Shown: positions 1-24,321 of the stretch, one piece after another
Layout of the letters: each line of letters begins with the position of its first letter
How positions within the stretch are numbered: position 1 is the first letter of the stretch
DNA from: Methylocella silvestris
GTDB lineage: Bacteria; Pseudomonadota; Alphaproteobacteria; Rhizobiales; Beijerinckiaceae
Assembly: GCF_002891535.1 (NCBI RefSeq)
Contig: NZ_PDZR01000025.1
Location: forward strand, 1-51,903
Direction: 5' to 3'
Length of the DNA stretch: 51,903 nucleotides
Position numbers and translations under genes: made by a program
The notes under the pieces: model-generated
Told to the model about the DNA's origin: nothing
What the model saw: the letters and a program-made list of their open reading frames with translations, nothing else
Database searches by the model: none

Positions 1-73
1 GACCGCTGGTCGTCGCCAGCCGCACAGCTTCCTTTTCAAAGTCCGCCGTGAAACGGCGCTGCTGCTTCCCCAT
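1..73 (-). CDS. IS3-family transposase OrfA, N-terminal part (partial)
   Basis: Reading leftward from an ATG at 73, the product begins MGKQQRRFTADFEKEAVRLA and runs off the window after 24 residues. This is the typical start of the small helix-turn-helix protein OrfA (InsE-like) of IS3 elements, which is normally joined to OrfB by programmed frameshifting. An AAAGGAAA ribosome-binding sequence sits a few bases upstream of the ATG. Only the N-terminus is visible, so the element's integrity cannot be judged. Confidence 0.8.
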   Translation of the reverse strand, partial: MGKQQRRFTADFEKEAVRLATTSG

Positions 74-364: not shown

Positions 365-1144
365 ATGATAAATGTCGCTTGTTTGATGATCTGCCTCCCT
401 GTCGCCGAACGCTTCGCCTTCTTTCAGCAAAGCGTCAGCGATTATCGCATGCAGACTTATCCGCATAAGACGCTGATCGTCGTCCTCGACGGACGCGGCG
501 TGGAGGGACGCCGGCGCGTTTGCGATCATTTGGCGACACTCGAAGACCCCTCCATTCGCGTGATTGCCCCCGAGGGCGATCTTACCCTTGGCGCGCTTCG
601 CAACGTCAGCTTCGAGGCGGCCGTGGCGGCCGTCGTCTGCCAATGGGATGACGATGACCGTTCGCATCCTCGCCGCATCGAGACGCAGCTTTCGGCCCTG
701 GTGGAAGGCGATTGCGACGCCGTGTTCCTTCAGGACGTGATGCAATATTTCCCGCGTTCGAACGTTTTGCGCTGGATCAATTGGAGAGCGACGCCAGCGG
801 GCGGCCATCCGGGAACGCTGATGGCGCGCCGTTCGGTCACCCCGCGCTATCCCGTCACGGGAGATAACGCGCAGCGCGGCGAGGATCTCGTCCTCGCACA
901 GGCGCTGCTCGAACGCGGGCGTGTTGGCTACGTCGGCGAACAACCCCATCTTTATCTTTACGCGAGCCATGGGGCCAACACGTGGAGCGACGATCATCAT
1001 CAGATGCTGAGCCGCGAGCTTTCGATTTCCCGCGGGCTTCTGCGTCGGCGCGAGTTGGAGATCCGTCGTGGGCTCGAGCCATTCTGCTTCGAGCCCGGCA
1101 AGATCGAGGTCGCGGGGAGCAATGGTTGCGCCTTCGTGCTCTGA
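365..1144 (+). CDS. Family 2-like glycosyltransferase (GT-A fold)
   Basis: Predicted 259-residue cytoplasmic glycosyltransferase. The N-terminus has the beta-alpha-beta start of GT-A enzymes, and residues 94-98 are WDDDD, matching the nucleotide-sugar and metal binding DxD region. Residues around 125-175 carry the GHPGTLMARR and GEDLVLAQAL segments expected of the acceptor side. No membrane segment is visible. It begins at ATG 365 after AGGTCG and ends 4 bases before the convergent transglutaminase-like gene. Its neighbours suggest a role in building the glycan handled by the SGNH/E1/lipoyl genes downstream, but donor and acceptor are unknown. Confidence 0.75.
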   Translation: MINVACLMICLPVAERFAFFQQSVSDYRMQTYPHKTLIVVLDGRGVEGRRRVCDHLATLEDPSIRVIAPEGDLTLGALRNVSFEAAVAAVVCQWDDDDRSHPRRIETQLSALVEGDCDAVFLQDVMQYFPRSNVLRWINWRATPAGGHPGTLMARRSVTPRYPVTGDNAQRGEDLVLAQALLERGRVGYVGEQPHLYLYASHGANTWSDDHHQMLSRELSISRGLLRRRELEIRRGLEPFCFEPGKIEVAGSNGCAFVL

Positions 1145-1148
1145 GACC

Positions 1149-2384
1149 TCAGTCGCGATGACATGGGGACCGAGCTCCGTCCCATAACCGGACGCCGATC
1201 TCATCGCGCGTCACCCGTACGCCGTCGAGACCCTCGAGGTCGATGCGGACGCCGCTGTCCGCTGGCGTCTGGAGAACGCGCCAGACCGCTGGAATCTTGG
1301 CGCCGATCGCGCCGGTGAATTCGAGCGGAAGCCGTTCGACGACCATCCGGGCGTCAATGCAGCCGAAGAATCGGTCGCTCCAATCGGCGTCGCGTCCGCC
1401 GCGCGACAGATCCCAGCTCAGCAGGTCGAAAGGGGTCCATCCCCGCCCCCCGATCCAGGCTTCCGCCCAGAAATGATTGGTCGGCGCCCTGGGATAGAGC
1501 ACATAGCCCCCGATGAGCCGGGCAGGGATGTCGACTGCGCGGCAAAGCGCGGCAAACAATGCCGAACCGAGCTGGCAATCATACCAGCCGGCGCGCACGA
1601 CAAAGTCGCAGGGCGCATGCAGGTCGAGCTGGTCATAATGGATCGGCCCACAGGCGTATTCGGACAACATATAGGTCCAGAACGCCCGCAGGGCGTTTTC
1701 GGGACGCGGCGAGGGGCCGGCAAGGCGGCGCGCGAGGCCTTCGATCGCTTCGCTAACGACGATCAGGCCTTCGCGCCGGCCGAGATGACGCGGGTTGGGC
1801 GCATCGACCGACTGCCAACCGCGCGGGAACCTATAGGAGGCGCTCATGACGGCTTCTCCCTGGCCGCGCGAGAGGCCGGAGGCTTCGAGGCGCCCCTCGC
1901 TCACTGTCAGGCGGAGGTCGTCGAGGCCTTCAGCCACCGCCTTTTCGACGACAAGAGCAGGGCCATCGACGCTCGCCAGCGGCGCCGGGGCGCGCAATCG
2001 CATCGGTTTGCCGGCAGGAGCCGTCACCGCGATCGTGCGGCGTAAAGTCAATTCCACGCTATCGCCGGGGGCCGCGGCGAATTCGGCCACGAGGCGGCGC
2101 CCGGTCTCAACGTAATGGCTTTCCCAGAACAGGTCGCGGCCCTCAAGCCCGCGCCGCTTCAGGAAATGAATGACCTCCACCGGATCGAAGCGCCGTCCGC
2201 CGGCCGCGTCCGCGCTAAAGGGAAGGCCGCTCGCGATCCATTCCCCGAGGGCGTCGCGGACCTGCTGCTCGGCGCGGCTGTCATCCGCTTCAAAGGCAAA
2301 TCCCGCGAGGCGCAGCATGGCAACGATTTTCTCCTCGCGCGCTGTGCGGTAGCGTTCTTCAAATACGGGCCCGGGTCCCTTCAT
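1149..2384 (-). CDS. Transglutaminase-like superfamily protein
   Basis: 411 residues. The C-terminal half carries the transglutaminase-like papain-fold triad: Cys270 in GWYDCQLGSA, His304 in NHFWAEAW and Asp320 in GWTPFD, in the usual order and spacing. The N-terminal 200 residues have no motif I recognise and probably form a beta-rich accessory domain. Bacterial members act as proteases, amidases or acyl-transfer enzymes, so the reaction cannot be fixed. No signal peptide is evident. It is transcribed divergently from the lipoyl-like gene at 2534 across 149 bases and convergently with the glycosyltransferase at 365. Confidence 0.75.
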   Translation of the reverse strand: MKGPGPVFEERYRTAREEKIVAMLRLAGFAFEADDSRAEQQVRDALGEWIASGLPFSADAAGGRRFDPVEVIHFLKRRGLEGRDLFWESHYVETGRRLVAEFAAAPGDSVELTLRRTIAVTAPAGKPMRLRAPAPLASVDGPALVVEKAVAEGLDDLRLTVSEGRLEASGLSRGQGEAVMSASYRFPRGWQSVDAPNPRHLGRREGLIVVSEAIEGLARRLAGPSPRPENALRAFWTYMLSEYACGPIHYDQLDLHAPCDFVVRAGWYDCQLGSALFAALCRAVDIPARLIGGYVLYPRAPTNHFWAEAWIGGRGWTPFDLLSWDLSRGGRDADWSDRFFGCIDARMVVERLPLEFTGAIGAKIPAVWRVLQTPADSGVRIDLEGLDGVRVTRDEIGVRLWDGARSPCHRD

Positions 2385-2533
2385 GGAAAATCGCGCCTCA
2401 AACTGACGTCGTCACGGCCTGACGCGGAAAGAATCGAGCGACGCAATACGCGGTTGCGATCGACAAAAAGCCCGAGGCGCCCAACAATCGCGCTTGCGAT
2501 CAATATGAAGCCGGCGCGGCGGCTGGAGAAAAA
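2385..2533. promoter_or_regulatory. Divergent promoter region
   Basis: 149 bases between the divergently read transglutaminase-like gene and the lipoyl-like/SGNH pair. Promoters for both units must lie here unless they extend into the genes. I cannot assign a -35/-10 pair with confidence. GGAG lies 5 bases before the ATG at 2534. Confidence 0.4.
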
Positions 2534-2899
2534 ATGCTTTATGAACTGTTGCTCCCCAAAATCATCTCTAACATGACAAAAGCCCGCATCGAAACCGTCT
2601 ACATGGCGGAAGGCGAAGAGGTCAAAACCGGAAAACTGCTCGATCTCAGCATCAATCTCGGCGACGTCGCATCCCAGAATTGTCCGCCAATTTCCTATTA
2701 CAGGCTGGTCACCCGCGAGAAAGCGCATCTTCAAAAGCTGATCGTCGCGGGCGGGGAAACATGCGCGCCTGGAGCGCGAATCGCCGTTTTGAGCGACGCA
2801 CCCGACGATGACGCCAGCCAGACGATCGCTCGACCTTTGCGCCTGACCGTCGCTGCGATCCTGTGGCATCCGCAGATGTGGTCGGCCAGTCAGCCATGA
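2534..2899 (+). CDS. Lipoyl/biotinyl-like domain protein lacking the modifiable lysine
   Basis: 121 residues. The N-terminal 80 residues align without gaps to the stand-alone lipoyl protein encoded at 4373-4678: MLYELLLPK against LIYKIVVPR, and the GEEVKTGKLLDL turn against PGRRFELGELIVEL. At the position of Lys43 of that protein this one has Gly43 (SINLGDV), so it should not carry lipoate or biotin. The fold is the barrel-sandwich hybrid of 2-oxo acid dehydrogenase E2 proteins. A CPP motif at about 50-52 is a possible alternative reactive site, which is speculation. The stop overlaps the next start as ATGA at 2896-2899, implying translational coupling. Confidence 0.65.
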   Translation: MLYELLLPKIISNMTKARIETVYMAEGEEVKTGKLLDLSINLGDVASQNCPPISYYRLVTREKAHLQKLIVAGGETCAPGARIAVLSDAPDDDASQTIARPLRLTVAAILWHPQMWSASQP

Positions 2900-4245
2900 C
2901 GGCAGAACTGACGACAGATTTGGTCCTTGGATCGCTCGGCGTGAAAGCGGGGCGCTCCGCCATCAGCTGGCTGCGCGAGAACGGCAGCCTTTGCCGCGCC
3001 GGCGAAGCGATCGGCTTTTGCTCTCTCGCCCTCGATCCTTCCGCGCTACGCTCCTTTGGCGGAAAGGGCTTTGCCGGCGAGGACGTGGTTCAGGCGGTCT
3101 TCGCGGCGCCATTTAGCGGGCATCTCGATCTCCGCTCGTCGGAGGCCGGCGGCCTGCTCGACCAGCGCGTTTTCGAACCCTGGCGCCCGGATGACATCGC
3201 CTGCCGCATCGAAGGCGATCCGGGGGATGCGCCTCTGGCGGCAGGGGCGCCGCGCGAAACGCGATCCGCGCCGCTGCGGTTGCTGCTGCTCGCCGGTCGG
3301 CGCATAGGCTGGCCCCTCGACGCGGGCGCCGCTCTGCTGCCCGGTCTTTATTCCCGCGCCCGCGCCTGGTGGGGGGATAAAATCGGGGACGCGCCAACTC
3401 TGCTCTCGTTTGGCCTCTGTGACGCAACGGGTTTCGTGCGCGGCCAGCGCTCCGCCTTTATCGAACTGTTCGAGTCGTCGGCTTTTCCCGCCCACATTGT
3501 GCATGTGTCGGAGAAGCCGCTCACACCGTGCGCCACCATTCTTCTCGAACAGCTCGGCCGGACGCCCGAGCAGGCAAGGCAGATCGGCCTTGATCTCAGC
3601 CGCAGTCTTTTCGACGGGCGCGCCGCGCCGCAGCCCGCCGATCTGATTTTCGCCGGCGCGCTGCTCCAGCAACTTGGCGATTCGCCGCTCCGCGACCGCC
3701 ACGCCGTCTTTGACCGCAACGGGATCGTCATGACAAGGCCCGCGGTCCGGATCCTTATGTCAGCAAGCGCCGAGCCACGATCCATCCTGCGGCACAAGCA
3801 GCTTGGCTACCACATCGATATTCTGCCGGAAAATGCGCGGGCCGCGGGGCCAGCCATTCGCGGCTGGCTCAGATCTGCTTTTGAACCCGTGCGGCGCGCG
3901 CTCTCCGACATGCTTGACGACTATGCGCGCCTCGCTGACGCCGTCGCCGCGGCGACCGGCGCGCGTCTCCTGATCGTCAACCGCATGTCGACCTCTGGGC
4001 GCGAGGACATCATCAGCTATGCGCCTTTCGACGCGCCGCTCGGGCAGACGCTTGCCTATGTCGCCGGGAAGGAATTGAACCTGATGCTGCACGATCTCGC
4101 CGCGACGCGTGACGTCGGCATTCTCGACGTCGATGCGATTGCGGCCGAGATCGGCGGCGCGCGGCATCTGTCCGATGGCATCCATCAGAGCGAGGAGATG
4201 CAGGAACTCCTGCGCCGGGAGGTCCTGCATGTGCTGGCCGCATAG
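2896..4245 (+). CDS. SGNH-like hydrolase/transferase with a possible barrel-sandwich N-terminal domain
   Basis: 449 residues from ATG 2896. Residues 1 to about 105 look like another beta-rich barrel-sandwich (biotinyl/lipoyl-like) domain, with GEAIGF and FAAPFSGHLDL segments. The C-terminal third resembles SGNH/GDSL esterases or acyltransferases and ends with ILDVDAIAAEIGG then DGIHQS, which matches the catalytic Asp-x-x-His block. The same VDVDA...DxxH arrangement occurs in the SGNH protein at 8551-9381. No signal peptide is seen. Coupling to the lysine-less lipoyl protein suggests the two work together. Acyl transfer to a glycan is an inference; an esterase or a structural role is equally possible. 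Confidence 0.6.
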   Translation: MTAELTTDLVLGSLGVKAGRSAISWLRENGSLCRAGEAIGFCSLALDPSALRSFGGKGFAGEDVVQAVFAAPFSGHLDLRSSEAGGLLDQRVFEPWRPDDIACRIEGDPGDAPLAAGAPRETRSAPLRLLLLAGRRIGWPLDAGAALLPGLYSRARAWWGDKIGDAPTLLSFGLCDATGFVRGQRSAFIELFESSAFPAHIVHVSEKPLTPCATILLEQLGRTPEQARQIGLDLSRSLFDGRAAPQPADLIFAGALLQQLGDSPLRDRHAVFDRNGIVMTRPAVRILMSASAEPRSILRHKQLGYHIDILPENARAAGPAIRGWLRSAFEPVRRALSDMLDDYARLADAVAAATGARLLIVNRMSTSGREDIISYAPFDAPLGQTLAYVAGKELNLMLHDLAATRDVGILDVDAIAAEIGGARHLSDGIHQSEEMQELLRREVLHVLAA

Positions 4246-4257
4246 AGCGCTTTCCGG

Positions 4258-4357
4258 TCACATGGAATCATGTGATCGATAAGAAATCGCTCACATCAAC
4301 GAGCTGGAGCATGTCCTTATCGTTCAGATAATTCCACCTGAACGGGACATGCTCCAG
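4258..4357. repeat. Double palindromic intergenic element between convergent operons
   Basis: Two hairpins in tandem. The first is TCACATG (4258-4264), loop GAAT, CATGTGA (4269-4275). The second pairs 4304-4316 (CTGGAGCATGTCC) exactly with 4345-4357, and inside it CGTTCAG (4321-4327) with CTGAACG (4338-4344). That makes 20 base pairs, broken only by a one-sided TTAT bulge at 4317-4320, around a 10-base loop. It lies between the ends of two convergent gene blocks, so it can act as a bidirectional transcription end or RNA stabiliser. It resembles the palindromic intergenic elements common in alphaproteobacteria; copy number cannot be judged here. Confidence 0.75.
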
Positions 4358-4372
4358 GCGCGGCGGCGCCCC

Positions 4373-4678
4373 TCAATCCACCGTGAAATCCACGGCAAGG
4401 ATGGCCGCCGCGGCGGGGTCTTCCGGCAGCGCTTCGCCGGCCTCGTCGCTCATCAGGGCGATCGGGCTCTCGAGTTGCGCCCATTCTCCCACATCGGCGA
4501 GAATGGCGCGCAGCCAGCCGGCCTGGCCCGAACGCATCTCGACAAGCGCCTTGTGCGTTTCGAGCTCGACGATGAGTTCGCCCAATTCAAAGCGGCGCCC
4601 TGGCTCGCCGTGCCATTCGAGCACGCGAATCTCCTCGACGTCCTCGCCGACCCTTGGAACGACAATCTTGTAAATCAG
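4373..4678 (-). CDS. Stand-alone lipoyl-domain protein (acyl carrier of an E1-type enzyme)
   Basis: 101 residues, essentially one lipoyl domain. ELETHKA at 38-44 is the lipoylation hairpin with Lys43, equivalent to ETDKA in pyruvate dehydrogenase E2. There is no peripheral-subunit-binding domain and no acyltransferase domain. The product should receive an acyl group from the E1 alpha/beta encoded just upstream. No ATG, GTG or TTG suits the start: the frame opens with CTG at 4678, overlapping the E1 beta stop, with GGGAGG a few bases before it. Ungapped alignment to the paralogue at 2534 puts this CTG opposite that protein's first methionine, so initiation at CTG (or ATT at 4675) is likely. 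Confidence 0.75.
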   Translation of the reverse strand: MIYKIVVPRVGEDVEEIRVLEWHGEPGRRFELGELIVELETHKALVEMRSGQAGWLRAILADVGEWAQLESPIALMSDEAGEALPEDPAAAAILAVDFTVD

Positions 4679-5724
4679 TCTCCGCCTCCCTCGTTCGTGA
4701 TGATTGCGTCCTCGGCGGCGGCCGCAAAGCGCGCGCCCAGCAAGGCCTTTGCCGCCGCGACGACGCGCCCCGCGTCCGGGACCACGGCAGCCTCGAGCAG
4801 GGGATTTGACGACACGGGCGCGGGCAGCGGGCCGACGCGGGCGGCGCGCAGGGGGCCGATCCGCTCGGCCACCCGCGCGGAAACTTCCGCCCCGACGCCG
4901 CATGTCAGCTGGCCTTCTTCGAGCGTGAGCAGCGCGCCGGTGCGCTGCGCCGATCTTGCGATCGTTTCGACGTCAAGCGGCGAAAGGCTGCGCAAATCGA
5001 TGACTTCGCAGGAGATTCCGTCGTCGGCGAGGCGTTGCGCCGCCTCCAGCGCGACGCGGACCATGAAGGAATGCGCGGTGAGCGTGACGTCAGTTCCGGC
5101 CCGGAGGATTTGCGCCACGCCTATTGCGCCCACTTCCTCGTCGAGCGGAACGTCGCCGGCGCCCGGAAACAGCCTTTTGTGATCGACATAGACGAGAGGG
5201 CCGGTTTCGCGCAGCGCGGCCTTCATCAGCAAATAGGCGTCGGCGGGGTTTGAGGGGGCGACGACTTTCAGGCCCGGCACGCCCATCAGCCAGGATTCGA
5301 TACATTGGGAATGGGCGACGCCCTGTCCCTTGGCGCCCGCCGTGGTCTTGACGACGAGAGGGGCAGTCATCCGTCCAGCGGATTTGAAACGGAGCTTGGC
5401 GCCATAATTGAACAGCGGATCAAGGCCGAGCATCAGAAAATCCATATAGGTGATGCTGACCAGCGGGCGAAAACCGCCCGCGGCAAGGCCAACCCCAACG
5501 CCCACCATCGCATTTTCGGCGACCGGCGTGTCGCGCACGCGCGCTGGCCCGAACTCCGCAAACAGGCCATCAAATTCGCGGTAGGAGCCGCCAAAGGCGC
5601 CGACGTCCTGTCCGAGCACGATTACACGCGCGTTCCGGCGCATCTCCTCCCGCACGGCGCGCGCGATGGCTTCCCGAAAGAACAGCCGCTCCGTGTTTGG
5701 CTTTCCGGGCTTCTCACCAGACAT
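4675..5724 (-). CDS. 2-oxo acid dehydrogenase E1 component, beta subunit (pyruvate/acetoin type)
   Basis: 349 residues, full length for the family. The transketolase-like pyrimidine-binding part has VIVLGQDVGAFGGSYREFDGL and DTPVAENAMVGVGVGLA, the latter holding the glutamate that activates thiamine diphosphate. A C-terminal transketolase domain follows (SCEVIDLRSLSPLDVETI). It should form a heterotetramer with the alpha subunit, decarboxylate a 2-oxo acid and acylate lipoate. The ATG at 5724 lies inside the end of the alpha gene (11-base overlap), and the stop overlaps the lipoyl gene start. The substrate is unknown; pyruvate or a branched 2-oxo acid is plausible. Confidence 0.88.
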   Translation of the reverse strand: MSGEKPGKPNTERLFFREAIARAVREEMRRNARVIVLGQDVGAFGGSYREFDGLFAEFGPARVRDTPVAENAMVGVGVGLAAGGFRPLVSITYMDFLMLGLDPLFNYGAKLRFKSAGRMTAPLVVKTTAGAKGQGVAHSQCIESWLMGVPGLKVVAPSNPADAYLLMKAALRETGPLVYVDHKRLFPGAGDVPLDEEVGAIGVAQILRAGTDVTLTAHSFMVRVALEAAQRLADDGISCEVIDLRSLSPLDVETIARSAQRTGALLTLEEGQLTCGVGAEVSARVAERIGPLRAARVGPLPAPVSSNPLLEAAVVPDAGRVVAAAKALLGARFAAAAEDAIITNEGGGD

Positions 5725-6640
5725 TGGCGAGCGCTTCATCGAGACGGGGCGGCGCCGACGCATCGGCAAAAACTGCGGCGGCCGCAATCTCCGCGGCGAT
5801 CGCCAGATCGAGGTCTGTGACCTGCGCCGGATCGAGGTCGCCCCTTGCGATGAGCTTTGCCTCGAAGGCGCGAATCGGACAGCGCGCCCGGATCGCTTCG
5901 AGCTCCGGTTTGCTTCGCGTTTCCCGCGCCGTCGTTGAATGGCTCGCAAAGCGCAGTGACAGACATTCCATGAAGGCCGGCCCGCGCCCGGACCGCACAG
6001 TCTCGATTGCCTCGCGCGCGGCATCGGCCACCGCCTCGACGTCCATTCCGTCGACTGTCCGGGCGGGAATGCCATAAGGCCTTGCAAGATCGGCGAGGTG
6101 CGCGGGCGCCAGCGCATATTTGCGCGGCGTCGACACCGAAAGCTGATTGTCGTTACAGACGAAAACCAGAGGCAGGCGCCAGATCGCGGCGAGGTTCAGG
6201 GCCTCGTGCAGCGCGCCGGACCCGCAGGCGCCATCGCCGAAAGCGACCGCCACGATGGATTTTTCGCCAGCCAATTGGCGCGCCAGCGCAAGGCCTGCCG
6301 CAATGGTCAGGTTGCCGCCGACCACGGCATGCGCGCCGAAAAATCCGGAGGCCGCATCATTGACATGGCCGCGTCCGGCGACGCCGCCATTCAGACCCGT
6401 CGATTTGCCGAGCAGTTCGGCCAGCAATCTCTGCGGATCAAGCCCGCGCGCCAGGGCAAAACCGATCGAACGACCGCCGGTCAGGAGCTGATCCGCCGCG
6501 CCAAGCGCCGCGCACAGCCCGACGGCGACAGCCTCCTCACCGGAAGACAGCAATTGGAAGCCGTGGTCGCGCCGCACCGCAAGCGCGGTTTCAAAGGCCC
6601 GGATCAGCTTCATGGTGCGCAATTGTTGGCGCGGCGTCAC
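5714..6640 (-). CDS. 2-oxo acid dehydrogenase E1 component, alpha subunit
   Basis: 308 residues from GTG 6640, somewhat short for the family, with a trimmed N-terminus. The thiamine-diphosphate signature is intact: GDGACGSGALHEALNLA at about 135-151, then VCNDNQ near 161-166, a spacing typical of the GDG-x(25-30)-N motif. GGVAGRGHVND and RFASHS correspond to the cofactor and phosphorylation-loop regions. The GTG overlaps the stop of the upstream SGNH-like gene as GTGA. Alpha, beta and lipoyl genes are in one overlapping run, so a single complex is expected. The housekeeping dehydrogenase context (E2 catalytic domain, E3) is absent. Confidence 0.88.
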   Translation of the reverse strand: MTPRQQLRTMKLIRAFETALAVRRDHGFQLLSSGEEAVAVGLCAALGAADQLLTGGRSIGFALARGLDPQRLLAELLGKSTGLNGGVAGRGHVNDAASGFFGAHAVVGGNLTIAAGLALARQLAGEKSIVAVAFGDGACGSGALHEALNLAAIWRLPLVFVCNDNQLSVSTPRKYALAPAHLADLARPYGIPARTVDGMDVEAVADAAREAIETVRSGRGPAFMECLSLRFASHSTTARETRSKPELEAIRARCPIRAFEAKLIARGDLDPAQVTDLDLAIAAEIAAAAVFADASAPPRLDEALANVW

Positions 6641-7539
6641 GCGCGCCCCCGCCGGCCGCGACCCATGCTTCTGGCGGCAAGATGCGCCGCGCCGTTCCAG
6701 GCAAGAGCCGCGCAGTTGCGCAGGCCGCGCCGCTCCACCGCCGTGCGGAACCGTCCCAGCGCGTCCCACGGGCTGATCTTGCCGGACGCCAGCGCACGCA
6801 GATAAAGGGCCGCCTGGTTTTCAGATTCGCCGAAGGTCTGCACCGTCTGCGCAAAGCCGCCGACGCGCATGGACAGCGTGTTGAGTCCGGCGGCGGGTGC
6901 GCGAGCAGAGGCCTCATTTGGCCAGGGCGGCGGAAGGCTCGCAAGATGAGCCCGCGCCGCCTCGATAGCGCCTGCGGCCACGTGGTCGTCGAATGCTGTG
7001 GTCAACAAGGCGCCAGCGACGCAGCGCGCAACGGCCTCGGCCGCGAAAACGCCGCTAAGCCGATAATCAGTCGCAAGCACGCGCGCACCGACATCAGCCA
7101 GCGCCCGATCGACGTCGATGACAAGGGCGCCAGTCTCGCGCGACACATCGGCGGCGAGGAGATTTAGCCGGCGGATGCGGATGCGCCGCGCCGCTGCAAG
7201 CGCGGGATCGTCGCCTTCGTGAACGCTTCGGAACACGGTTAGGAGGTACAAAAACTCATGTGATCGCGCGGCCTCGCCCATGCGCGCCCGCAACCTTGTT
7301 TCAGTCTCATTCCAGGGCTCAGCGAAACGCTCGACCTCGGGCAGAAGCGAGGCGATGAAGAGTTCCCTTCCGCCCGGGACGTCCGGCGGCGCGTCAATGT
7401 CTGCGAAGGCGCAGTCGAGGCGGCAAGCGTCAGCGCCGGCTGCGGCAAGACAGTCGGCGACCCGCAGCGCCGCAAGGGAGAGCGCGGCCTGTTCCTCGGC
7501 AGGAACGCTCGCCCGGATGACGAACAGGCTGTTATTCAA
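6637..7539 (-). CDS. SGNH-like protein with degenerate catalytic block
   Basis: 300 residues from TTG 7539, which overlaps the upstream stop and follows AAAGGG. The layout matches the SGNH proteins of this locus: FIASLLPEVERF in the middle and GALVIDVDRALADVG near 180-195, equivalent to the SIVDVDAVLARAG of the protein at 8551-9381. Where the others have DAMH or DGIH this one has DYRLSG, so the catalytic histidine is missing. The C-terminal 100 residues are an extra helical region. I read it as a non-catalytic paralogue, perhaps a partner or scaffold, but a distinct activity cannot be excluded. Confidence 0.55.
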   Translation of the reverse strand: MNNSLFVIRASVPAEEQAALSLAALRVADCLAAAGADACRLDCAFADIDAPPDVPGGRELFIASLLPEVERFAEPWNETETRLRARMGEAARSHEFLYLLTVFRSVHEGDDPALAAARRIRIRRLNLLAADVSRETGALVIDVDRALADVGARVLATDYRLSGVFAAEAVARCVAGALLTTAFDDHVAAGAIEAARAHLASLPPPWPNEASARAPAAGLNTLSMRVGGFAQTVQTFGESENQAALYLRALASGKISPWDALGRFRTAVERRGLRNCAALAWNGAAHLAARSMGRGRRGRA

Positions 7540-8566
7540 GAAAGGCCCTTTCCCGCTCGCTGGCAGCCAGATGCGCCCGCCGCACCGCCTCGATTCCGAC
7601 CACGCCGTCGCAGCGCCGCGCCGCTCTGAAGAGATCCGGAAGGGACCGGATACGCGCATATGCCGGAAGAGCGGACGTTTCCGCAAGGCTCGCCCAAAGG
7701 ACAGCAAGAAGCGGAGTTTCGGGAATCGGATGCAGCCGGTAGAAGCGTTTTTCCCAATCTCTCTCGACAAGCGGGTCGCGCCAGCCTTTGCGGTGAATCA
7801 TGTGAAATGAGCGGGCGCCTGTCGCCAGCGCCATCCGCAGCCCCGCCTTGACCAGCCGCAAGGCGATCTCGCGATGCTCGTTGATCGAAAGCTCGGGGTC
7901 AAAGCCGCCAGCTTCGAGGAAGGCCAAGCGCGCCACCGACTGGTTCGAGCCGGAAGCCGCGGCCCATAACACGCCGCAGTCGGTCTCTGCCTGCAGGGCC
8001 TCCATTTCGAGGTCGTAGAGGCGCCGCGGCCCTGCGCCAGGATAGATGCCCGGCTGCGCGCGCAATTCGATCGATGAGAAATTCCGGCTGATGTCCGCCT
8101 TGGTGACGCGGCTGCGCGCGCGTTCGCGCTCCGGCATGGCGGCGACCCTTGCCTCTTCGCCGGGCATGGGAGAGCCCGTTTCGGGATCGGCGAAGACTCG
8201 AGTCTGGCGCAAATGGAGCGTTTCGCCGCGCGCGACGACGCCGCCGCGCTTGCTGTGGGCGGCAAGATGACGCTCGACAAAATCGGGCGCAGCCAGCGTG
8301 TCCCCGTCGAGAAAAATGAGAATGTCGCCGCTCGCGCGCTGCGCGCCGGCGTTTGCCGCGAGAGAGCGGCCGAGAGCCTGCTCATGGTCGATCCGGACCA
8401 GCGGCGTCTCAATTGAGGCGGCGTGCAGAACGGCGTCCGTTTCGTCGGTCGATCCATCATTGACGACGACGATCTCGGCAGGTTCGCTCTGGCAGGCGAG
8501 CGAGGCTAGCGTCAGCCTCAGCCGCGCAGATTCATTCCGCGACCGGACGATTACGCTTGCTCGCAT
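7532..8566 (-). CDS. Family 2 glycosyltransferase
   Basis: 344 residues. The N-terminus is classic GT2: MRASVIVRSRNES, VVNDGSTDETDAVL and FLDGDTLAAPDFV, with the DGD metal/donor site near 88-90. The later segment GSNQSVARLAFLEAGGFDPEL followed by INEHREIALRL matches the acceptor-side motif of GT2 enzymes. It ends with a helical tail and no membrane span. It overlaps the SGNH gene upstream by 16 bases and the degenerate SGNH gene downstream by 8, so it is in the middle of one operon. The sugar transferred is not deducible. Confidence 0.85.
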   Translation of the reverse strand: MRASVIVRSRNESARLRLTLASLACQSEPAEIVVVNDGSTDETDAVLHAASIETPLVRIDHEQALGRSLAANAGAQRASGDILIFLDGDTLAAPDFVERHLAAHSKRGGVVARGETLHLRQTRVFADPETGSPMPGEEARVAAMPERERARSRVTKADISRNFSSIELRAQPGIYPGAGPRRLYDLEMEALQAETDCGVLWAAASGSNQSVARLAFLEAGGFDPELSINEHREIALRLVKAGLRMALATGARSFHMIHRKGWRDPLVERDWEKRFYRLHPIPETPLLAVLWASLAETSALPAYARIRSLPDLFRAARRCDGVVGIEAVRRAHLAASERERAFLE

Positions 8567-9381
8567 GCGTCAAGCCTTCTTTCGGTCGGCGGCGCGTCCG
8601 CTTCAAACAGGCCGAGGTCACAAAGTATGCGGACAACATCTTCGGCGACGAGGCGGCAGCCTTCCGGGGAAAGATGCATCGCATCGATCTTGAGCCCATC
8701 CGCGCCCGCGCGGGCGAGCACGGCGTCGACATCGACGATCGAGACGCCGGTCTTTGCAGAAAGCTCGATCAGTCCGAGATTGAAGCGGCGGACGGCCGTA
8801 GAGAATACCTCGTCGAGCCCCAGATGGCAGTGAATATGCTCACCCGGCATGACAAAGGAGAGATTGTAGATCAGGATCGGCGCCTGCGAGCGCTCCCGGA
8901 TTCGATCGACAATCTTTTCGAGATTACCCATCGACTGCTCGACCGTGAGCGGGGCGGTCTCGACGAACTCCCGCCTAAGCCATTCCTGTTCATGCGCCGG
9001 CCAGCTTCCGGCGCTGTTCGGGTAGAACGGAAAGCCTGCACGCTGATGCCGGACCAGCCTTGTGGCGATCTCCGGCATAACCGACATGACGATCACATCG
9101 GCGTCGGTCTCAAAGACCTTTGTGCTGAACTGGCTCTCGAGCGGATAGGCGCCGAGCGGCGCACTGCAATCAGAAAGTTCTACTGGAACCGAGCCAGTCG
9201 CCTCAAGCAGCGCCTCGGAGCTGGTCGAAGTCTCATGCCTCATGCGGATCGATACGCCAGGATAGCGTGTCCGGACGATCTCATTGACACCGTTCCAGCA
9301 CAATTTGCCGCCGATGCGGCAGGAATGAAGCGAGTCGTAAAGATCGACATTGCCTTTGAGGAACAGAGTAAGGCGTCGCAA
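8551..9381 (-). CDS. SGNH/GDSL-like hydrolase or acyltransferase
   Basis: 276 residues from TTG 9381, with GGAG 8 bases upstream. The N-terminus FLKGNVDLYDSLHSC matches SGNH block I with Ser in YDSLH. ILIYNLSFV lies mid-protein, and the C-terminus SIVDVDAVLARAG plus KIDAMHLSPEG supplies the Asp-x-x-His pair. No signal peptide is present, so it likely acts in the cytoplasm. It is the first gene of the E1/lipoyl operon. In glycan loci SGNH proteins add or remove O-acyl groups; here the E1-lipoyl pair could supply the acyl group, which is inference. The 330 bases upstream should contain the operon promoter. Confidence 0.7.
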   Translation of the reverse strand: MRRLTLFLKGNVDLYDSLHSCRIGGKLCWNGVNEIVRTRYPGVSIRMRHETSTSSEALLEATGSVPVELSDCSAPLGAYPLESQFSTKVFETDADVIVMSVMPEIATRLVRHQRAGFPFYPNSAGSWPAHEQEWLRREFVETAPLTVEQSMGNLEKIVDRIRERSQAPILIYNLSFVMPGEHIHCHLGLDEVFSTAVRRFNLGLIELSAKTGVSIVDVDAVLARAGADGLKIDAMHLSPEGCRLVAEDVVRILCDLGLFEADAPPTERRLDACEQA

Positions 9382-9713: not shown

Positions 9714-9788
9714 CGCGCAATTTCGTGAAATGACCCCGTTCCAGCATTCGTAATGACGGGGTCGGGGGTTCGAATCCCTCTTGCGCGC
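9714..9788 (+). pseudogene. Degenerate tRNA-like element, tRNA-Thr(CGT)-like 3' half
   Basis: The ends CGCGCAA (9714-9720) and TTGCGCG (9781-9787) form a perfect 7-bp acceptor stem. GGGGG-TTCGAAT-CCCTC (9764-9780) is a standard T arm. TTCGTAA at 9747-9753 sits where an anticodon loop should be (anticodon CGT, Thr), with the correct 5-base variable region after its stem. However, no D arm can be drawn, two anticodon-stem pairs are broken, and CCA is shifted by one base. A competing 8-bp hairpin joins 9732-9739 with 9756-9763. I read it as a decayed tRNA or an attachment-site remnant. Confidence 0.45.
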
Positions 9789-10513
9789 CACCTAACATAC
9801 TGAAATAACTTTATTATTCATTTCAGGCCACGCCCGATCTTTCAAATTCTCGGTCGTGTAAGCACTATGTCAGCAGCCGGATCGATTTCGCGGTTCTTTT
9901 CATCCCGCCCCTCGCCACGACCAACGCCATACGCTTCCAGCGCGGAGCGCTGGCGCATGCCCTCGTCTTTCTCTTCTTCAGCTCAAAAAAGAGACGAGCC
10001 GTCCAAGCTGTCCAAACGATATTGGATCAATGAGTTGCGAGATGGGCGCCGTCCAAGGGTTGTCCAAAATCGTCCAAGAGACGAAATAGGGCGATCGGCG
10101 AGGTCTCCGAGGGCAAGAAAACGGTCGAAATCGCCGGATCGCACCGGCTTGGCGCATCCGTGCGCTGTGGGCGCGCGTGTACCGATTTCTGGATCGCATC
10201 ACTGGCGATGCGCCGGACTACGGCGGCGGCGCATGCGGCAAGGGGCCGGCAAGGACCTGCGGCTCTGCCGCCGCCGCGCAGGCCGCGAGTTGCCGCCGAC
10301 GACGGACACATGTCGAACGTCCTGCGGGCGCAAACGCGCCGATTCCAGTCGGTCCGCATTTGGGGAAAACAATTAGGCAGCGAACGTTCGAAGCAGCGTT
10401 GCGCCGACGCACGGCAACTGGCCGCAGCGCGCCACAATCGCTATGACTCTGACGAACGGCGATGTTTCGCCTGGCTCCGCCGCGCGCCTGGATGGGGAAA
10501 CTTACCCAGTCGC
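9789..10513. other. Gene-poor stretch, no supported coding sequence
   Basis: 725 bases between the tRNA-like element and the L,D-transpeptidase-like gene. Open frames exist on both strands (for example 9867-10376 plus and 10027-10437 minus), but their products are low-complexity arginine/serine-rich strings with no motif, and none has a good ribosome-binding site. A cluster of GTCCAA words lies at about 9996-10072. Position beside a tRNA-like site suggests leftover DNA of a lost integrated element. Confidence 0.4.
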
Positions 10514-15473: not shown

Positions 15474-17147
15474 TTATTGTCCCTGGTGCGCCTTGATTGC
15501 CGCCTCGATCTCGGCCTTGACGTTCTGCAGATTGAAGGACGCCGACGCTTGCATCGGCGGGAAGTCGATCGCCGTTTCGCCGAGTTTCGCAACTTCTTGC
15601 TGGACCAAAACGAAGCGCCAGAATTCGCGCGCCATGAAGTCGTTCATATAGGCGGGCGAAGAGTCGTTCAGGCTTTGCCCGCGCAGCGGCGAGAGCCGCT
15701 CGAACGGATCCTGCCGGATGTTGACGATGGTCGGCATGTCGGTTGCGACTTTTTCGCCCGGCCAGCCCCAGGGCTGTTGGAAGAACTGATATTTGAAATC
15801 GTCGAGCCGCAGCGCGCCAAGATGCGGTCCGCCGAAGTAGAAGATTTCATGACGCGCCGTCTTCGCCTTGCCGGTCAACAGGTCGAGCTGATTGTAGCCG
15901 TCGAGATGGTTCTTGTAGGTCTGCCCTTCGAGCTCGACGCCCTTCAGGAGCTTGTCCTTGATGTCCGGAACGCCGGCGGCGGCAGACAGCGTCGGCAGCC
16001 AGTCGAGACCGGAGAAGATGCCGTTCTCGACCGAACGCGGCTTCACCTTGCCCGGCCAGCGGATGATCGCCGGAACGCGGAAGCCGCCTTCATAGATGGT
16101 GCCCTTGGTCGCCTTGAACGGCGTCATGCCGCCATCCGGCCAGGTGAAGACTTCGGCGCCATTGTCGGTGGTGAAAATGACAATCGTGTTGTCGGTTTCC
16201 CCAATATCCTCAACATGCTTCAGAAGCGCGCCAATGCTGTCGTCCATCTGCGCCATGCCCGCCTCCTCGAGGCCGAAATTATCTGTCGCATTCATCTTCG
16301 CCTGATATTTCGGCGGCAGGAAGGTGAACACATGCATGCGTGTGGTATTGTGCCAGACGAAGAAGGGTTTGCCGTCTTTCTTCGCCTTGTCCATGAAGTC
16401 GCTGGAGGATTTGACGAGCACTTCGTCGAACGTCTCCATGTCATATTTGGCCTTGCGGCCTTCCTGCCAGCCCTGCTGGTCCTTCATGTCGGGGAAGGGC
16501 GCCAGCGGGCCTTCGTCGATGATCTTCTGCTTGCCGATCTTGCCCCAGCGCAGCTGCTCGGTCGGGTCATCCACGGCAGAGGCAAAACTGTGCACCAGGG
16601 TGCGGGGGCCGTATTTGTCCACCCAATCCTGCGGATAGGAATACCAATAGGGGTCGGACATGGCGTCGAGATGGTAGAGATAGCCGAAGAACTCGTCGAA
16701 GCCATGCACGGTCGGCAAGAATTTGTTGAGATCGCCAAGATGGTTCTTGCCGAACTGCCCGGTCGCGTAGCCCTGCGCCTTCAGCACGGTGGCGAGAGTC
16801 ACGGCTTCCGCGGGCAGCCCAATGTCTGCGCCAGCTTGGCCGACGGTGGTGAGGCCCGTGCGGATCGGCAGCTCGCCGGTGATGAAATTGGCCCGGCCCG
16901 CCGTGCAGCTCGCCTCGGCGTAGTAATCGGTGAACATCATGCCTTCGTCGGCGAGCTTGTCGAGGTTCGGCGTCTTGCCTGACATGATGCCACGATGATA
17001 GGCGCCGATATTGAACCAGCCGACATCATCGCCCATGATGACGAGAATGTTGGGCTTTTTGGCCGGCGCCTGCGCGAGGGCTGGCCCTGTCAAGGCCGCA
17101 AGCGTGACCACGAGCGCGCTGCTCGCGAGTGTCCGTCGAAGCGTCAT
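15474..17147 (-). CDS. Periplasmic arylsulfatase-family protein (sulfatase 1)
   Basis: 557 residues from ATG 17147 with AAGGGA 7 bases upstream. A signal peptide runs to about residue 26 (PALAQ). MGDDVG at 38-43 gives the paired calcium-binding aspartates. CTAGR at 81-85 is the C-x-A/P-x-R signature whose Cys becomes formylglycine. GKNHLGD and FTTDNGAEVF supply further active-site residues. It should hydrolyse sulfate (or phosphonate) monoesters in the periplasm. It is a close relative of the next gene, sharing AQAPAKKPNI, CTAGR and GYATGQFGKNHLGD, so the two arose by tandem duplication. No formylglycine-generating enzyme is in the window. Confidence 0.9.
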   Translation of the reverse strand: MTLRRTLASSALVVTLAALTGPALAQAPAKKPNILVIMGDDVGWFNIGAYHRGIMSGKTPNLDKLADEGMMFTDYYAEASCTAGRANFITGELPIRTGLTTVGQAGADIGLPAEAVTLATVLKAQGYATGQFGKNHLGDLNKFLPTVHGFDEFFGYLYHLDAMSDPYWYSYPQDWVDKYGPRTLVHSFASAVDDPTEQLRWGKIGKQKIIDEGPLAPFPDMKDQQGWQEGRKAKYDMETFDEVLVKSSSDFMDKAKKDGKPFFVWHNTTRMHVFTFLPPKYQAKMNATDNFGLEEAGMAQMDDSIGALLKHVEDIGETDNTIVIFTTDNGAEVFTWPDGGMTPFKATKGTIYEGGFRVPAIIRWPGKVKPRSVENGIFSGLDWLPTLSAAAGVPDIKDKLLKGVELEGQTYKNHLDGYNQLDLLTGKAKTARHEIFYFGGPHLGALRLDDFKYQFFQQPWGWPGEKVATDMPTIVNIRQDPFERLSPLRGQSLNDSSPAYMNDFMAREFWRFVLVQQEVAKLGETAIDFPPMQASASFNLQNVKAEIEAAIKAHQGQ

Positions 17148-17305
17148 GGACTGTCCCTTTCTCTTGATTTTGATGTGAATGACGGCTCGCTCGATGCAGA
17201 GCGTCTTTCGGGCCGAGAGCGTGATGCTAAAAGTTGTAGACTTTTCGACCTTTGCCTTTCTGCATTGCAAACAAACAAGGGCGCCTGCCTGCCCGTTGCG
17301 GACGA

Positions 17306-18892
17306 TCAATCTCCGCTCGGCTGCTGCATCTTTTCCATCGCCCGGTCGATAGAGAAGGTCGCCGCCTTCTGCCTCGGGGGAAACTCCTTGAAGGTCGCCA
17401 GGAAGTTGCCGACGTAGGTCTGGGCCGGCACCAGCATGAATGCGTGGTCGAGCAGCCAATCGTAGTAGGTGTTTGACGTGATATTGGCGCGCTCGTAGGG
17501 ATCGAGCCGAAGATTATAGATGAGCGGGACGCGTAGATGGGTGAAAGGCTCGGCCCAGACCTGCAAGGTTCCCGGCGCTCTTTGCTCGGCGAAAACGAAC
17601 TTCCAATTATCGTAACGAAGCCCGGTCAGATCGCCGTCGTCGGAGAAATAGAAGAATTCCTTGCGTGGTCCCGTTTTCTCGTCGCCGGTCAGATAAGGCA
17701 GCAGATTATAGCCGTCGAGATGCGCCTTGAAGGTTGTCGCGCCGGCCTTGTACCCGGTGAGCAGCTTCTCCTTGACATCGGGGACGCCCGCCGCCGCAAG
17801 CAGTGTTGGCAACCAGTCGAGATGCGAGACGATCGCGTTGGAGACCGTTCCGGGCTTGATCTTTCCCGGCCAGCGGACCATCGCAGGCACGCGATAGGCG
17901 CCTTCCCAGTTGGAGTTTTTTTCGTTCCGGAAGGGCGTCATTGCGGCGTCCGGCCATGAGTTCATATGCGGGCCATTGTCGGTCGAATACATCACAATGG
18001 TGTTGTCCTCGATGCCGAGTTCTTTCAGCTTGGCGAGAACGGATCCAACATTCCGGTCATGGTCGATCATGGTGTCGGCGTAGGGGCCAAGCCAGCGACC
18101 GGCCTGCCCGAGGCTCTCCGGTTTGGTATGCGTACGGAAATGCATATGGGTGAAGTTGACCCACAAAAATACCGGCTTGTTGGCCTTGACCTGCTTGTCA
18201 AGGAACTCGACCGAGCGGTTGGCGATGTCGTCGTCGATTGTCTCCATCCGCTTTTTGGTCAGCGGACCTGTATCTTCGATTTTTTGCGCGCCGTCGGGCA
18301 GGGCAAAACTATGCAAAACGCCGCGCGGTCCAAAATTCTTCCGAAAATTTGGAAACTCGGGATCGTTGGGCTTCGGATAATCGGGAAGCTCTGGCTCTTC
18401 TTCGGCGTTCAGATGGTAAAGATTGCCATAAAATTCGTCGAAGCCGTGAGCGGTCGGCAGAAACTCGTCCTTGTCGCCAAGATGATTCTTGCCGAACTGG
18501 CCGGTCGCGTAACCCTGGGCCTTCAGGAGATCCGCAATCGTCGGATCCTCTTTTCGCAAGCCAACATCGGCGCCCGGAAGCCCGACTTTGCTAAGGCCCG
18601 TCCGAAACACGCTTTGGCCCGTGATGAAAGCGGAGCGCCCCGCCGTGCAGCTCTGTTCGCCGTAATAGTCGGTGAACTTCATGCCCTGATCAGCAATTCC
18701 GTCGATGTTGGGCGTGCGGTAGCCCATCAGCCCGTCGGTATAGGCGCTAAGGTTCGACTGGCCAACGTCGTCGCCCCAGATGATGACGATATTGGGCTTC
18801 TTAGCCGGCGCCTGGGCCATGGCGGAAAAGCCTGACGCAGCCGCGGCCACAACCGCCAGCGCCGCCGTCAATAGTGGATGTCGATGGCTCAC
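17306..18892 (-). CDS. Periplasmic arylsulfatase-family protein (sulfatase 2)
   Basis: 528 residues, start taken as GTG 18892 because GGCAGGAAAC directly precedes it and it begins the signal peptide (cleavage near AMAQ, residue 27). GDDVG at 40-44 and CTAGRS at 82-87 form the metal and formylglycine sites; STDNGPHMNSW carries later metal ligands. It is the tandem paralogue of the gene at 15474-17147. The 158 bases between the two genes are long enough for a separate promoter. Substrate is unknown; the two differ through the 200-260 region, so specificity may differ. Confidence 0.9.
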   Translation of the reverse strand: MSHRHPLLTAALAVVAAAASGFSAMAQAPAKKPNIVIIWGDDVGQSNLSAYTDGLMGYRTPNIDGIADQGMKFTDYYGEQSCTAGRSAFITGQSVFRTGLSKVGLPGADVGLRKEDPTIADLLKAQGYATGQFGKNHLGDKDEFLPTAHGFDEFYGNLYHLNAEEEPELPDYPKPNDPEFPNFRKNFGPRGVLHSFALPDGAQKIEDTGPLTKKRMETIDDDIANRSVEFLDKQVKANKPVFLWVNFTHMHFRTHTKPESLGQAGRWLGPYADTMIDHDRNVGSVLAKLKELGIEDNTIVMYSTDNGPHMNSWPDAAMTPFRNEKNSNWEGAYRVPAMVRWPGKIKPGTVSNAIVSHLDWLPTLLAAAGVPDVKEKLLTGYKAGATTFKAHLDGYNLLPYLTGDEKTGPRKEFFYFSDDGDLTGLRYDNWKFVFAEQRAPGTLQVWAEPFTHLRVPLIYNLRLDPYERANITSNTYYDWLLDHAFMLVPAQTYVGNFLATFKEFPPRQKAATFSIDRAMEKMQQPSGD

Positions 18893-19027
18893 GTTTCCTG
18901 CCCCCTGTCGCCGAATTATAGACGCGCTATGTTTTCTTGGCCGGAGCATTTGGGAGAGCATGTCCACGGCGGATCGATTCGCTCAATCTGTCTCTTGATT
19001 AGATGGCCGGCCGGACGTTCCCTGCCT

Positions 19028-20467: not shown

Positions 20468-20510
20468 CAATACTAAACTCCCCTATCGTCGAATCTTGTC
20501 GATACTCGGA

Positions 20511-24047: not shown

Positions 24048-24321
24048 CAGGCGCTGCGGCTCCCCCGCGGCCCGATGGGCGGCGGACAAACATGCATAAT
24101 ATGCCGGGCCCCGCGCTCCTTGCAGGCGTTTGCCGCCGCCCATAAGGCGCTCCAAGCCGACGTCAAACCCTGGCGCCGGCTTGCATTGGCCTCTGCCGCT
24201 GATCGCGCGCCAATCTGCGGCGCGCCCCCCATGCGACGTCCGTCAATACGCCCCCGCGGGCCTTCGATTTTTGGAGACAGGCCCATCCTGATAGCGCAGC
24301 ATGATCGAAGGTCAGGCTCAA

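Follow-up and report, generated by a model that had tools for sequence, protein, structure and literature searches.

The window considered here, a 51,903-nucleotide stretch of DNA from Methylocella silvestris, is contig C17 of a host genome of 4.28 Mb. At positions 365 to 9381 it carries a candidate acylation island of ten genes. They encode the two subunits of an E1 of the 2-oxoacid dehydrogenase type (E1-alpha and E1-beta), a free-standing lipoyl carrier protein (lipB), a second protein with a lipoyl-like fold (lipA), three SGNH-like proteins (SGNH1 to SGNH3), a transglutaminase-core protein (TGL), and two family 2 glycosyltransferases (GT2a and GT2b). In this text lipA and lipB are labels for island proteins, distinct from the host lipoylation enzymes LipA and LipB.

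The six minus-strand genes SGNH1, GT2b, SGNH2, E1-alpha, E1-beta and lipB overlap by 16, 8, 4, 11, and 4 bases, respectively, in line with the overlaps of 4 to 16 bases reported in an initial annotation made from the DNA alone. The coupled lipoyl-like/SGNH pair that it saw facing the E1 operon is also present, with lipA and SGNH3 overlapping by 4 bases on the plus strand. Its span of 2534 to 9381 covers the eight genes that it named, but is slightly short, as TGL and GT2a lie outside it. The apparent start codon of lipB at 4678 is a CTG behind a purine-rich stretch, overlapping the stop codon of E1-beta; in the alignment, most relatives have a methionine at this position.

Table 1. Genes of the island, with window coordinates, strand, and the evidence for each assignment.
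Gene	Description	Position	Strand	Evidence
GT2a	family 2 glycosyltransferase, 259 aa, optional island member	365..1144	+	Pfam Glycos_transf_2 2.3e-10
TGL	transglutaminase-core protein, 411 aa, Cys270/His304/Asp320	1149..2384	-	Pfam Transglut_core 6e-15
lipA	lipoyl-fold protein, 121 aa, without lipoyl lysine, Cys50-Pro51	2534..2899	+	AlphaFold2, Foldseek, hhalign
SGNH3	N-terminal beta region and SGNH-like domain, 449 aa	2896..4245	+	AlphaFold2, Foldseek
lipB	free-standing lipoyl carrier protein, 101 aa, motif E-T-H-K-A	4373..4678	-	Pfam Biotin_lipoyl 6.5e-11
E1-beta	2-oxoacid dehydrogenase type, 349 aa	4675..5724	-	Pfam Transket_pyr 4.3e-33, Transketolase_C 3.2e-30
E1-alpha	2-oxoacid dehydrogenase type, 308 aa, GTG start	5714..6640	-	Pfam E1_dh 1.8e-58
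SGNH2	SGNH1-related, 300 aa, TTG start	6637..7539	-	hhalign to SGNH1 97.0%
GT2b	family 2 glycosyltransferase, 344 aa	7532..8566	-	Pfam Glycos_transf_2 5.6e-22
SGNH1	SGNH-like, 276 aa, TTG start	8551..9381	-	Pfam Lipase_GDSL_2 4.7e-6, below Pfam cut-off

Both E1 proteins are assigned as 2-oxoacid dehydrogenase subunits by Pfam and NCBIfam, and E1-beta also by comparison with the PDB, where it matches the pyruvate dehydrogenase 1ik6 at 1.6e-64. The thiamine diphosphate motif GDG...N of E1-alpha is intact, and the Glu and His-Ser-Gln residues of E1-beta are present, as a visual check of the window and four relatives showed. The window E1s share 33-41% identity with the host's own pyruvate- and acetoin-type E1s. 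lipB is identified as an E2-type lipoyl domain by Pfam, NCBIfam, and the E2 lipoyl domains in the PDB; its best NCBIfam match is the lipoyl part of the AcoC-type family, although all NCBIfam matches lie below the library cut-off. Lys43 of lipB is invariant in 38/38 alignment rows, as is Thr-[His/Tyr]-Lys-Ala, and variation in the motif E-T-[H/Y]-K-A is limited to H/Y and to two rows in which E is replaced by D. Since the E1 motifs are intact and the lipoyl lysine is invariant, E1 likely acylates lipB.

Relatives of the island were collected by scanning 84,980 species genomes with the window's E1-beta as seed. The scan used exact peptide patterns, and the resulting 41 loci are therefore a lower bound. 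In 39 of them, tblastn with the ten window proteins recovered the island or the part of it held by the contig. The two others, L041 and L045, were excluded as outliers (43% and 41% identity), both having an E2 match. L004 duplicates L025 (Methylocapsa palsarum NE2) and therefore did not enter the counts, and genome G416 (L064) holds the same contig as L023. Neither the catalytic part of the host's E2 nor the host's E3 (queries from G000:C15, G000 being the host) was matched by tblastn in any of the 39 island loci, within at most 10 kb on each side and often less. The E2 query matched only the two outliers; the E3 query found no match in any locus, the outliers included, and this search thus had no positive control. 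The claim that E1 and the lipoyl protein stand without a neighbouring E2 or E3 is borne out by these results, and homologues were not found always to pair with such genes. lipB is likewise, as described, a bare domain without a transferase. Other contigs of the host genome carry three E2 genes, as well as pyruvate dehydrogenase genes with an E3, the latter recognised by reading. The host's LipB-type ligase is represented by one PF03099 match on contig C75 and not on the island's contig, so that lipB would need the general modification machinery, and the shared E3 for reoxidation.

The co-occurrence of the E1 pair with a single-domain lipoyl protein and SGNH proteins, which had been proposed as a genome search, is found in 28 of the 39 loci, where all eight core genes are present; TGL is present in all 28. 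The remaining eleven contigs each end within or at the block. Individual genes were recovered in 31 (SGNH1), 32 (GT2b), 33 (SGNH2), 34 (E1-alpha), 39 (E1-beta, the seed), 36 (lipB), 36 (SGNH3), 35 (lipA), 33 (TGL), and 11 (GT2a) of the 39 loci, and the order is rearranged in L026. As the block recurs in 39 loci, its layout is not due to chance. E1-alpha and E1-beta overlap in 34/34 loci, by exactly 11 bases in 29, and lipA and SGNH3 overlap in 29/35, with start codons picked by script as those nearest to the window's starts. lipB follows E1-beta within 60 bases in 33/36 loci. Furthermore, lipB and SGNH3 are convergent neighbours in 31/36 loci, with a gap of -53 to +159 bases (18/36 if only positive gaps are counted); the adjacency is absent from L014, L017, L026, L043, and L044. 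The last of these, from a metagenome-assembled genome (MAG) of Aromatoleum, has a second lipB beside SGNH3 (L044:6362-6664), while the first keeps its place next to E1-beta; between the two copies are TGL, GT2b, and two other frames. This linkage, including the second lipB of L044, is the best genetic hint that SGNH3 is the partner that takes the acyl group. The pairwise distances of seven core proteins are correlated across 28 loci (r 0.59-0.87), and the block therefore seems to be inherited together.

The alignments were restricted to complete proteins of at least 80% of the length of the window protein. Alignment A1 contains 35 of the 36 long SGNH3 locus rows and the window, leaving out L008, which is cut at a contig end. 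A2, A3, A4, and A5 contain 35, 30, 37 (L044 twice), and 29 (L006 twice) locus rows plus the window. The same rule gave 15/33 locus rows for SGNH2 (A7). A6 holds 6/9 GSCFA matches, and A9 16/30 GDSL loci. A8 comprises 129/155 flank proteins, with the 26 omitted being mostly near-duplicate loci and the largest proteins.

The AlphaFold2 model of lipA, built from 36 sequences, is a lipoyl/biotinyl-type barrel with a pLDDT of 89.8. Its best Foldseek matches are E2 lipoyl domains and biotin carriers with a probability of 1.00, one below 1e-3 and the next at 1.6e-3, and hhalign relates lipA to lipB (98.1%). Against PDB lipoyl domains the matches are weak (best E 0.0076), and most alignments stop at position 42-44. 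The initial annotation was right in calling lipA lipoyl-like, but overlooked that the lipoyl lysine is absent and that Cys50-Pro51 is invariant in 36/36 rows. In the model, the loop connecting strands 33-41 and 53-60 contains Cys50, and this is the position of the lipoyl-lysine hairpin. The N-terminal part of SGNH3 aligns with lipA at just 1.7% in hhalign.

SGNH3 is modelled with an N-terminal beta region and a C-terminal SGNH-like domain (AlphaFold2, pLDDT 88.1). Its Foldseek neighbours include SGNH esterases and thioesterase I (1u8u), with a probability of about 1 for the top matches and a best E of 1.4e-3. Lipase_GDSL_2 matches 11/36 rows and the window copy has no Pfam match, while profile comparison ties SGNH3 to SGNH1 at 99.6%. 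Gly-Asp-Ser is absent from SGNH3, and the model places a Gly-x-Cys at block I instead. Gly173-x-Cys175 and His430 are each found in 36/36 rows and Asp427 in 34/36 (Asp427-x-x-His430). Cys175 is the sole invariant cysteine of the protein; in the model it follows strand 168-172 and is the first residue of helix 175-182. SGNH enzymes have their nucleophile at such a place, and from the modelled architecture we infer that Cys175 may act as the nucleophile.

The other two SGNH-like proteins differ from SGNH3 in this respect. SGNH1 matches Lipase_GDSL_2 in 31/31 rows, and its block I reads KGN-x-D, with Lys and Asn in 31/31 rows and neither Ser nor Cys at the Ser position; His236 is present in 31/31. 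SGNH2 has no Pfam match in the window, the last D-x-x-H position is Leu or Met in the alignment rows, and both the nucleophile and the catalytic His are apparently missing. SGNH1 and SGNH2 thus appear to lack a nucleophile; rather than being catalytic, these SGNH-like subunits probably serve to bind the acceptor or the carrier. The suggestion that an acyl-lipoyl group is handed to an SGNH enzyme is therefore possible for SGNH3, with its Gly-x-Cys and His, but less so for SGNH1 and SGNH2 of the E1 operon.

TGL carries Cys270, His304, and Asp320 in 30/30 rows and occurs in several copies at L006. Its position and strand are more variable than those of the core. None of the cassette proteins shows a clear membrane segment: their highest 19-residue hydropathy is 1.72, compared with 2.33 and 2.56 for two membrane proteins and 1.75 for a sulfatase used as controls. 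Judged by their sequences, the island proteins look cytosolic.

In classical complexes, the transfer from E1 to the lipoyl group feeds E2 and coenzyme A (CoA). An island without a local E2 or E3 suggests a rewired lipoyl donor, which probably serves CoA-free acylation. We tentatively read the island, at somewhat less than even chances, as a self-contained cytosolic acylation system in which the acyl group moves from E1 to lipB, on to lipA and SGNH3, perhaps with TGL, and finally to a glycosylated acceptor, without CoA. E1-alpha and E1-beta would decarboxylate a 2-oxoacid, such as pyruvate or a close relative, and reductively acylate the lipoyl group of lipB. In place of E2, the lipA-SGNH3 pair would take over the acyl thioester through Cys175 of SGNH3, perhaps after Cys50 of lipA, and a passage of the acyl group to these thiols is plausible. 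SGNH3, possibly together with TGL, could then acylate a hydroxyl or an amine on a molecule that GT2b or GT2a has glycosylated, which is the weakest step. Host LipB and LipA would lipoylate lipB, and host E3 would reoxidise its dihydrolipoyl group. Whether E2 is replaced in full by such a thiol relay, with an E1-charged lipoyl group, a cysteine-type SGNH acyltransferase, and a cysteine-tipped lipoyl-fold helper acting onto a sugar, is more doubtful, and we regard it as possible at best. Of all conclusions, that of a glycosylated molecule as the final acceptor is the weakest, its sole basis being the linked glycosyltransferases. Decoration of a surface glycan, as first proposed, finds little support, given the missing membrane segment and flanking genes that vary by locus.

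Several observations weigh against the proposed pathway. Among 129 flank proteins, GT1 models match 6 and GT2 models 5, and the varying flanking genes do not establish a polysaccharide context. The clade support that splits the island E1s from four other E1s is low, at 0.67 and 0.49. SGNH3 has no Foldseek match at E<=0.001, and canonical GDSL profiles match it weakly (16.9%), in an alignment confined to the C-terminal Asp-x-x-His part, so that the case for Cys175 as nucleophile rests on architecture. Finally, the 1.05 kb that follow E1-beta in L015 contain no lipB, and TGL is missing from L028 over about 7.8 kb past lipA; a contig end is not the cause in either case.

It is unlikely that the host's ordinary E2 completes the pathway, converting acyl-lipoyl-lipB to acyl-CoA, with the island adding just an extra E1 and a mobile lipoyl domain. 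The three host E2 genes and the E2-type character of lipB would allow for this. However, lipB is a bare domain, none of the ten proteins was recognised as an acyl-CoA enzyme, and lipA, the cysteine of SGNH3, and the tight linkage of SGNH3 to both lipB and lipA would be left unexplained. Another unlikely course has TGL, and not SGNH3, taking the acyl group from lipB by its Cys-His-Asp triad and forming an amide, the product being a small glycosylated metabolite. AdmF of andrimid is a transglutaminase homologue in natural-product amide formation, and the invariant triad (30/30), the presence of TGL in 28/28 complete loci, and its several copies in L006 fit such a role. The more variable position and strand of TGL argue against it, as does the fact that the ten genes include no recognisable one for a carrier protein or for amino-acid activation. 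SGNH3 might also be a thioesterase that edits lipB or lipA, or releases their acyl group as a free acid, with the sugar chemistry being separate. We hold this to be quite unlikely: thioesterase I (1u8u) is among its structural neighbours, but a hydrolase would waste the E1 product, and the strict linkage to a glycosyltransferase and two more SGNH-like proteins would not be explained.

Two further explanations assign the E1 pair or lipB to other chemistry. Thiamine-dependent carboligation onto sugars is known from YerE for yersiniose, and the island E1 could work as a carboligase, extending a sugar aldehyde or ketone by two carbons to give branched-chain sugars, with lipB as a vestige or redox partner. 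The linked glycosyltransferases and the absence of lipB from the 1.05 kb behind E1-beta in L015 agree with this, yet carboligation needs neither the lipoyl lysine conserved in 38/38 rows nor a lipB within 60 bases of E1-beta in 33/36 loci, which makes the explanation very unlikely. Finally, lipB could be a redox or sulfur carrier, comparable to LbpA, a lipoate-binding protein of sulfur oxidation. There are free-standing lipoate proteins that serve non-classical purposes (PMC6067878), and the lipA cysteine could exchange with a dihydrolipoyl group. LbpA, however, comes with its own LplA-like ligase (PMC6067878), while the host's single PF03099 match is on another contig, and the E1 pair would have no purpose; such a role is highly improbable.

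The preferred pathway, from E1 via lipB to lipA and SGNH3, can be set beside several known systems. Compared with 2-oxoacid dehydrogenase complexes, such as pyruvate and acetoin dehydrogenase, the island shares the E1-alpha/beta fold and motifs and a lipoyl domain with its lysine, and looks like their first half. In the island, however, the lipoyl domain is free-standing and the host-type E2 catalytic part and E3 are unmatched. In acetoin-type AcoC, a hydrolase-fold protein likewise takes the place of the usual E2 acyltransferase. There, the lipoyl domain is fused to an alpha/beta hydrolase, whereas in the island it is separate, the fold is SGNH-like, and glycosyltransferases are linked. AcoC-type proteins are thus in part a precedent for the pairing of a hydrolase fold with a lipoyl domain. 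The host's acetoin-type cluster G000:C11 (L061) appears to hold an AcoC-type E2, by reading and by the NCBIfam family that best matches lipB. Among the island loci, the hydrolase part of such a protein matches only in L038 (31% over 109 aa, 9e-7), some 4 kb past TGL.

SGNH acyltransferase systems of the PatB/AlgX type act outside the cytoplasm. By comparison, the island proteins look cytosolic, the proposed donor is a lipoyl group, and the proposed nucleophile is a cysteine. What these envelope O-acyltransferases share with the island is an SGNH fold that moves acyl groups to carbohydrate (PMC9487903). PatB works with the membrane protein PatA (PMC12148441). The GSCFA family (PF08885) belongs to the SGNH clan and has a Gly-Ser-Cys, which a non-significant alignment overlays on the Gly-x-Cys of SGNH3. 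Membership of SGNH3 in this family was rejected, as hhalign against six GSCFA proteins gave 0.2%, which is not significant, and no GSCFA hit was obtained in 36 rows. The family is listed as being without known function (PMC9487903). LbpA resembles lipB as a free-standing lipoyl protein encoded in a gene cluster, with a role outside central metabolism (PMC6067878), but the island has an E1 pair and there is no ligase on the window's contig. No Hdr family was among the general Pfam matches of the ten proteins, a search not aimed at Hdr.

In the biosynthesis of tetrahydroisoquinoline antibiotics, NapB/NapD and EtuP1/EtuP2 are E1-like and lipoyl proteins for two-carbon loading; no paper on them was found in the open-access search. 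As in the proposed pathway, a thiamine enzyme there passes a two-carbon unit via a lipoyl group to an acceptor other than CoA. Their acceptor is the acyl carrier protein of a peptide synthetase, whereas in the island no acyl carrier protein was recognised by Pfam among the ten cassette proteins. The initial annotation knew of no described system with such a layout, and none was found in the open-access literature, a coverage that leaves out most subscription journals and does not prove absence. If the pathway is correct, the lipoyl group would join the acyl donors of SGNH-like proteins as a new one, SGNH enzymes would include a cysteine type, and a lipoyl-fold domain would have turned into a cysteine carrier. 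Should the acceptor be a carrier protein or CoA, the system would amount only to a variation on an already known type.

According to record titles, the island hosts are mostly Alphaproteobacteria, with others scattered, and include the isolates Gluconacetobacter diazotrophicus, Methylocapsa palsarum, and Novosphingobium flavum. The genus of the window's genome, by kinship assignment, includes G003, whose contig C29 is L004. Because all 39 loci came through E1-beta, searches were also made with other seeds. SGNH2 was found in 2/198 related genomes (host and G003), and SGNH3 in 2/387 genomes of the class (host and G416) and in 1/397 of the phylum (the host itself). In the family of G416, SGNH3 matched 2/10 genomes, the match in G929 being C-terminal only and in a frame of SGNH1 size. 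lipA matched 9/385 genomes of the class at E<=0.001, with strong matches (<1e-45) only in the host and G416. Five of the seven weak matches cover just the first 42-45 positions and lie in frames of 427-486 aa, the pattern expected of an ordinary E2 lipoyl domain. All full-length matches of SGNH2, SGNH3, and lipA in the host, G416, and G003 are within the island. From these small samples, the island is therefore rare, patchy, and kept as a unit. No plasmid copy of SGNH3 was found, and the 6 plasmid matches of lipB are all below 60% identity, five of them in annotated E2 proteins and one without a feature.

Outside the island, L111 and L113 hold weak lipA-profile matches (E 3.3e-4 and 6.1e-4), one in a frame of 105 aa, which might be other free lipoyl-fold proteins. 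The MAG titles of L023 and L029 name Candidatus Kuenenia and Bordetella parapertussis, while the island otherwise occurs mainly in Alphaproteobacteria. G416, the genome with the contig of L023, is of the same class as the host, and the title is probably wrong at least for L023.

No constant extra partner was seen in the flanks among the top 25 of 162 Pfam families in the 129 flank proteins. Rough clustering of open reading frames gave larger clusters beyond the ten families (14, 9, 7, and 6 loci), whose exemplars overlap cassette genes; the first cluster not doing so is a UbiA protein at 5 loci. In or near the island of the Gluconacetobacter loci L014, L017, L043, and L021 lie a UbiA-prenyltransferase/HAD protein (L014:11718-13112) and a protein of about 570 aa. 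In L014, L017, and L043, the genes lipA, SGNH3, and TGL are located beyond these two. In Gluconacetobacter hosts, the UbiA/HAD protein could link the island to a prenyl-phosphate sugar.

On the side of GT2a, the contig begins on the minus strand inside a frame at window 2-73 that starts MGKQQRRFTADFEKEAVRLATTSG, so that the contig break falls at this element, which we take to be the start of an IS3-type transposase OrfA. At the other end, about 380 bases upstream of SGNH1, a stretch at 9765-9790 resembles the 3' end of a tRNA and may be an integration scar; Rfam returned nothing for it. A tRNA site as island boundary was rejected, as the stretch occurs once in the genome and no tRNA is predicted in the window. 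A predicted tRNA was present in 2/26 loci scanned, one of them inside the TGL of L031.

Further along the window, three sulfatase genes (PF00884) lie within 12 kb (15474-18967 and 24301-26886), adjoined by a DUF1254/DUF1214 protein at 19028-20470. Beyond these are a Wzz-like chain-length protein (30164-32416), a GMC-oxidoreductase-like protein (41525-43270), and an AT3-SGNH fusion acyltransferase (Acyl_transf_3 and SGNH) at 49539-51545; the frames in between include glycosyltransferase-like ones, recognised by reading. The region at 30164-51545 resembles an exopolysaccharide-type cluster in its own right, which would have a conventional acyltransferase of its own some 40 kb away from the island.

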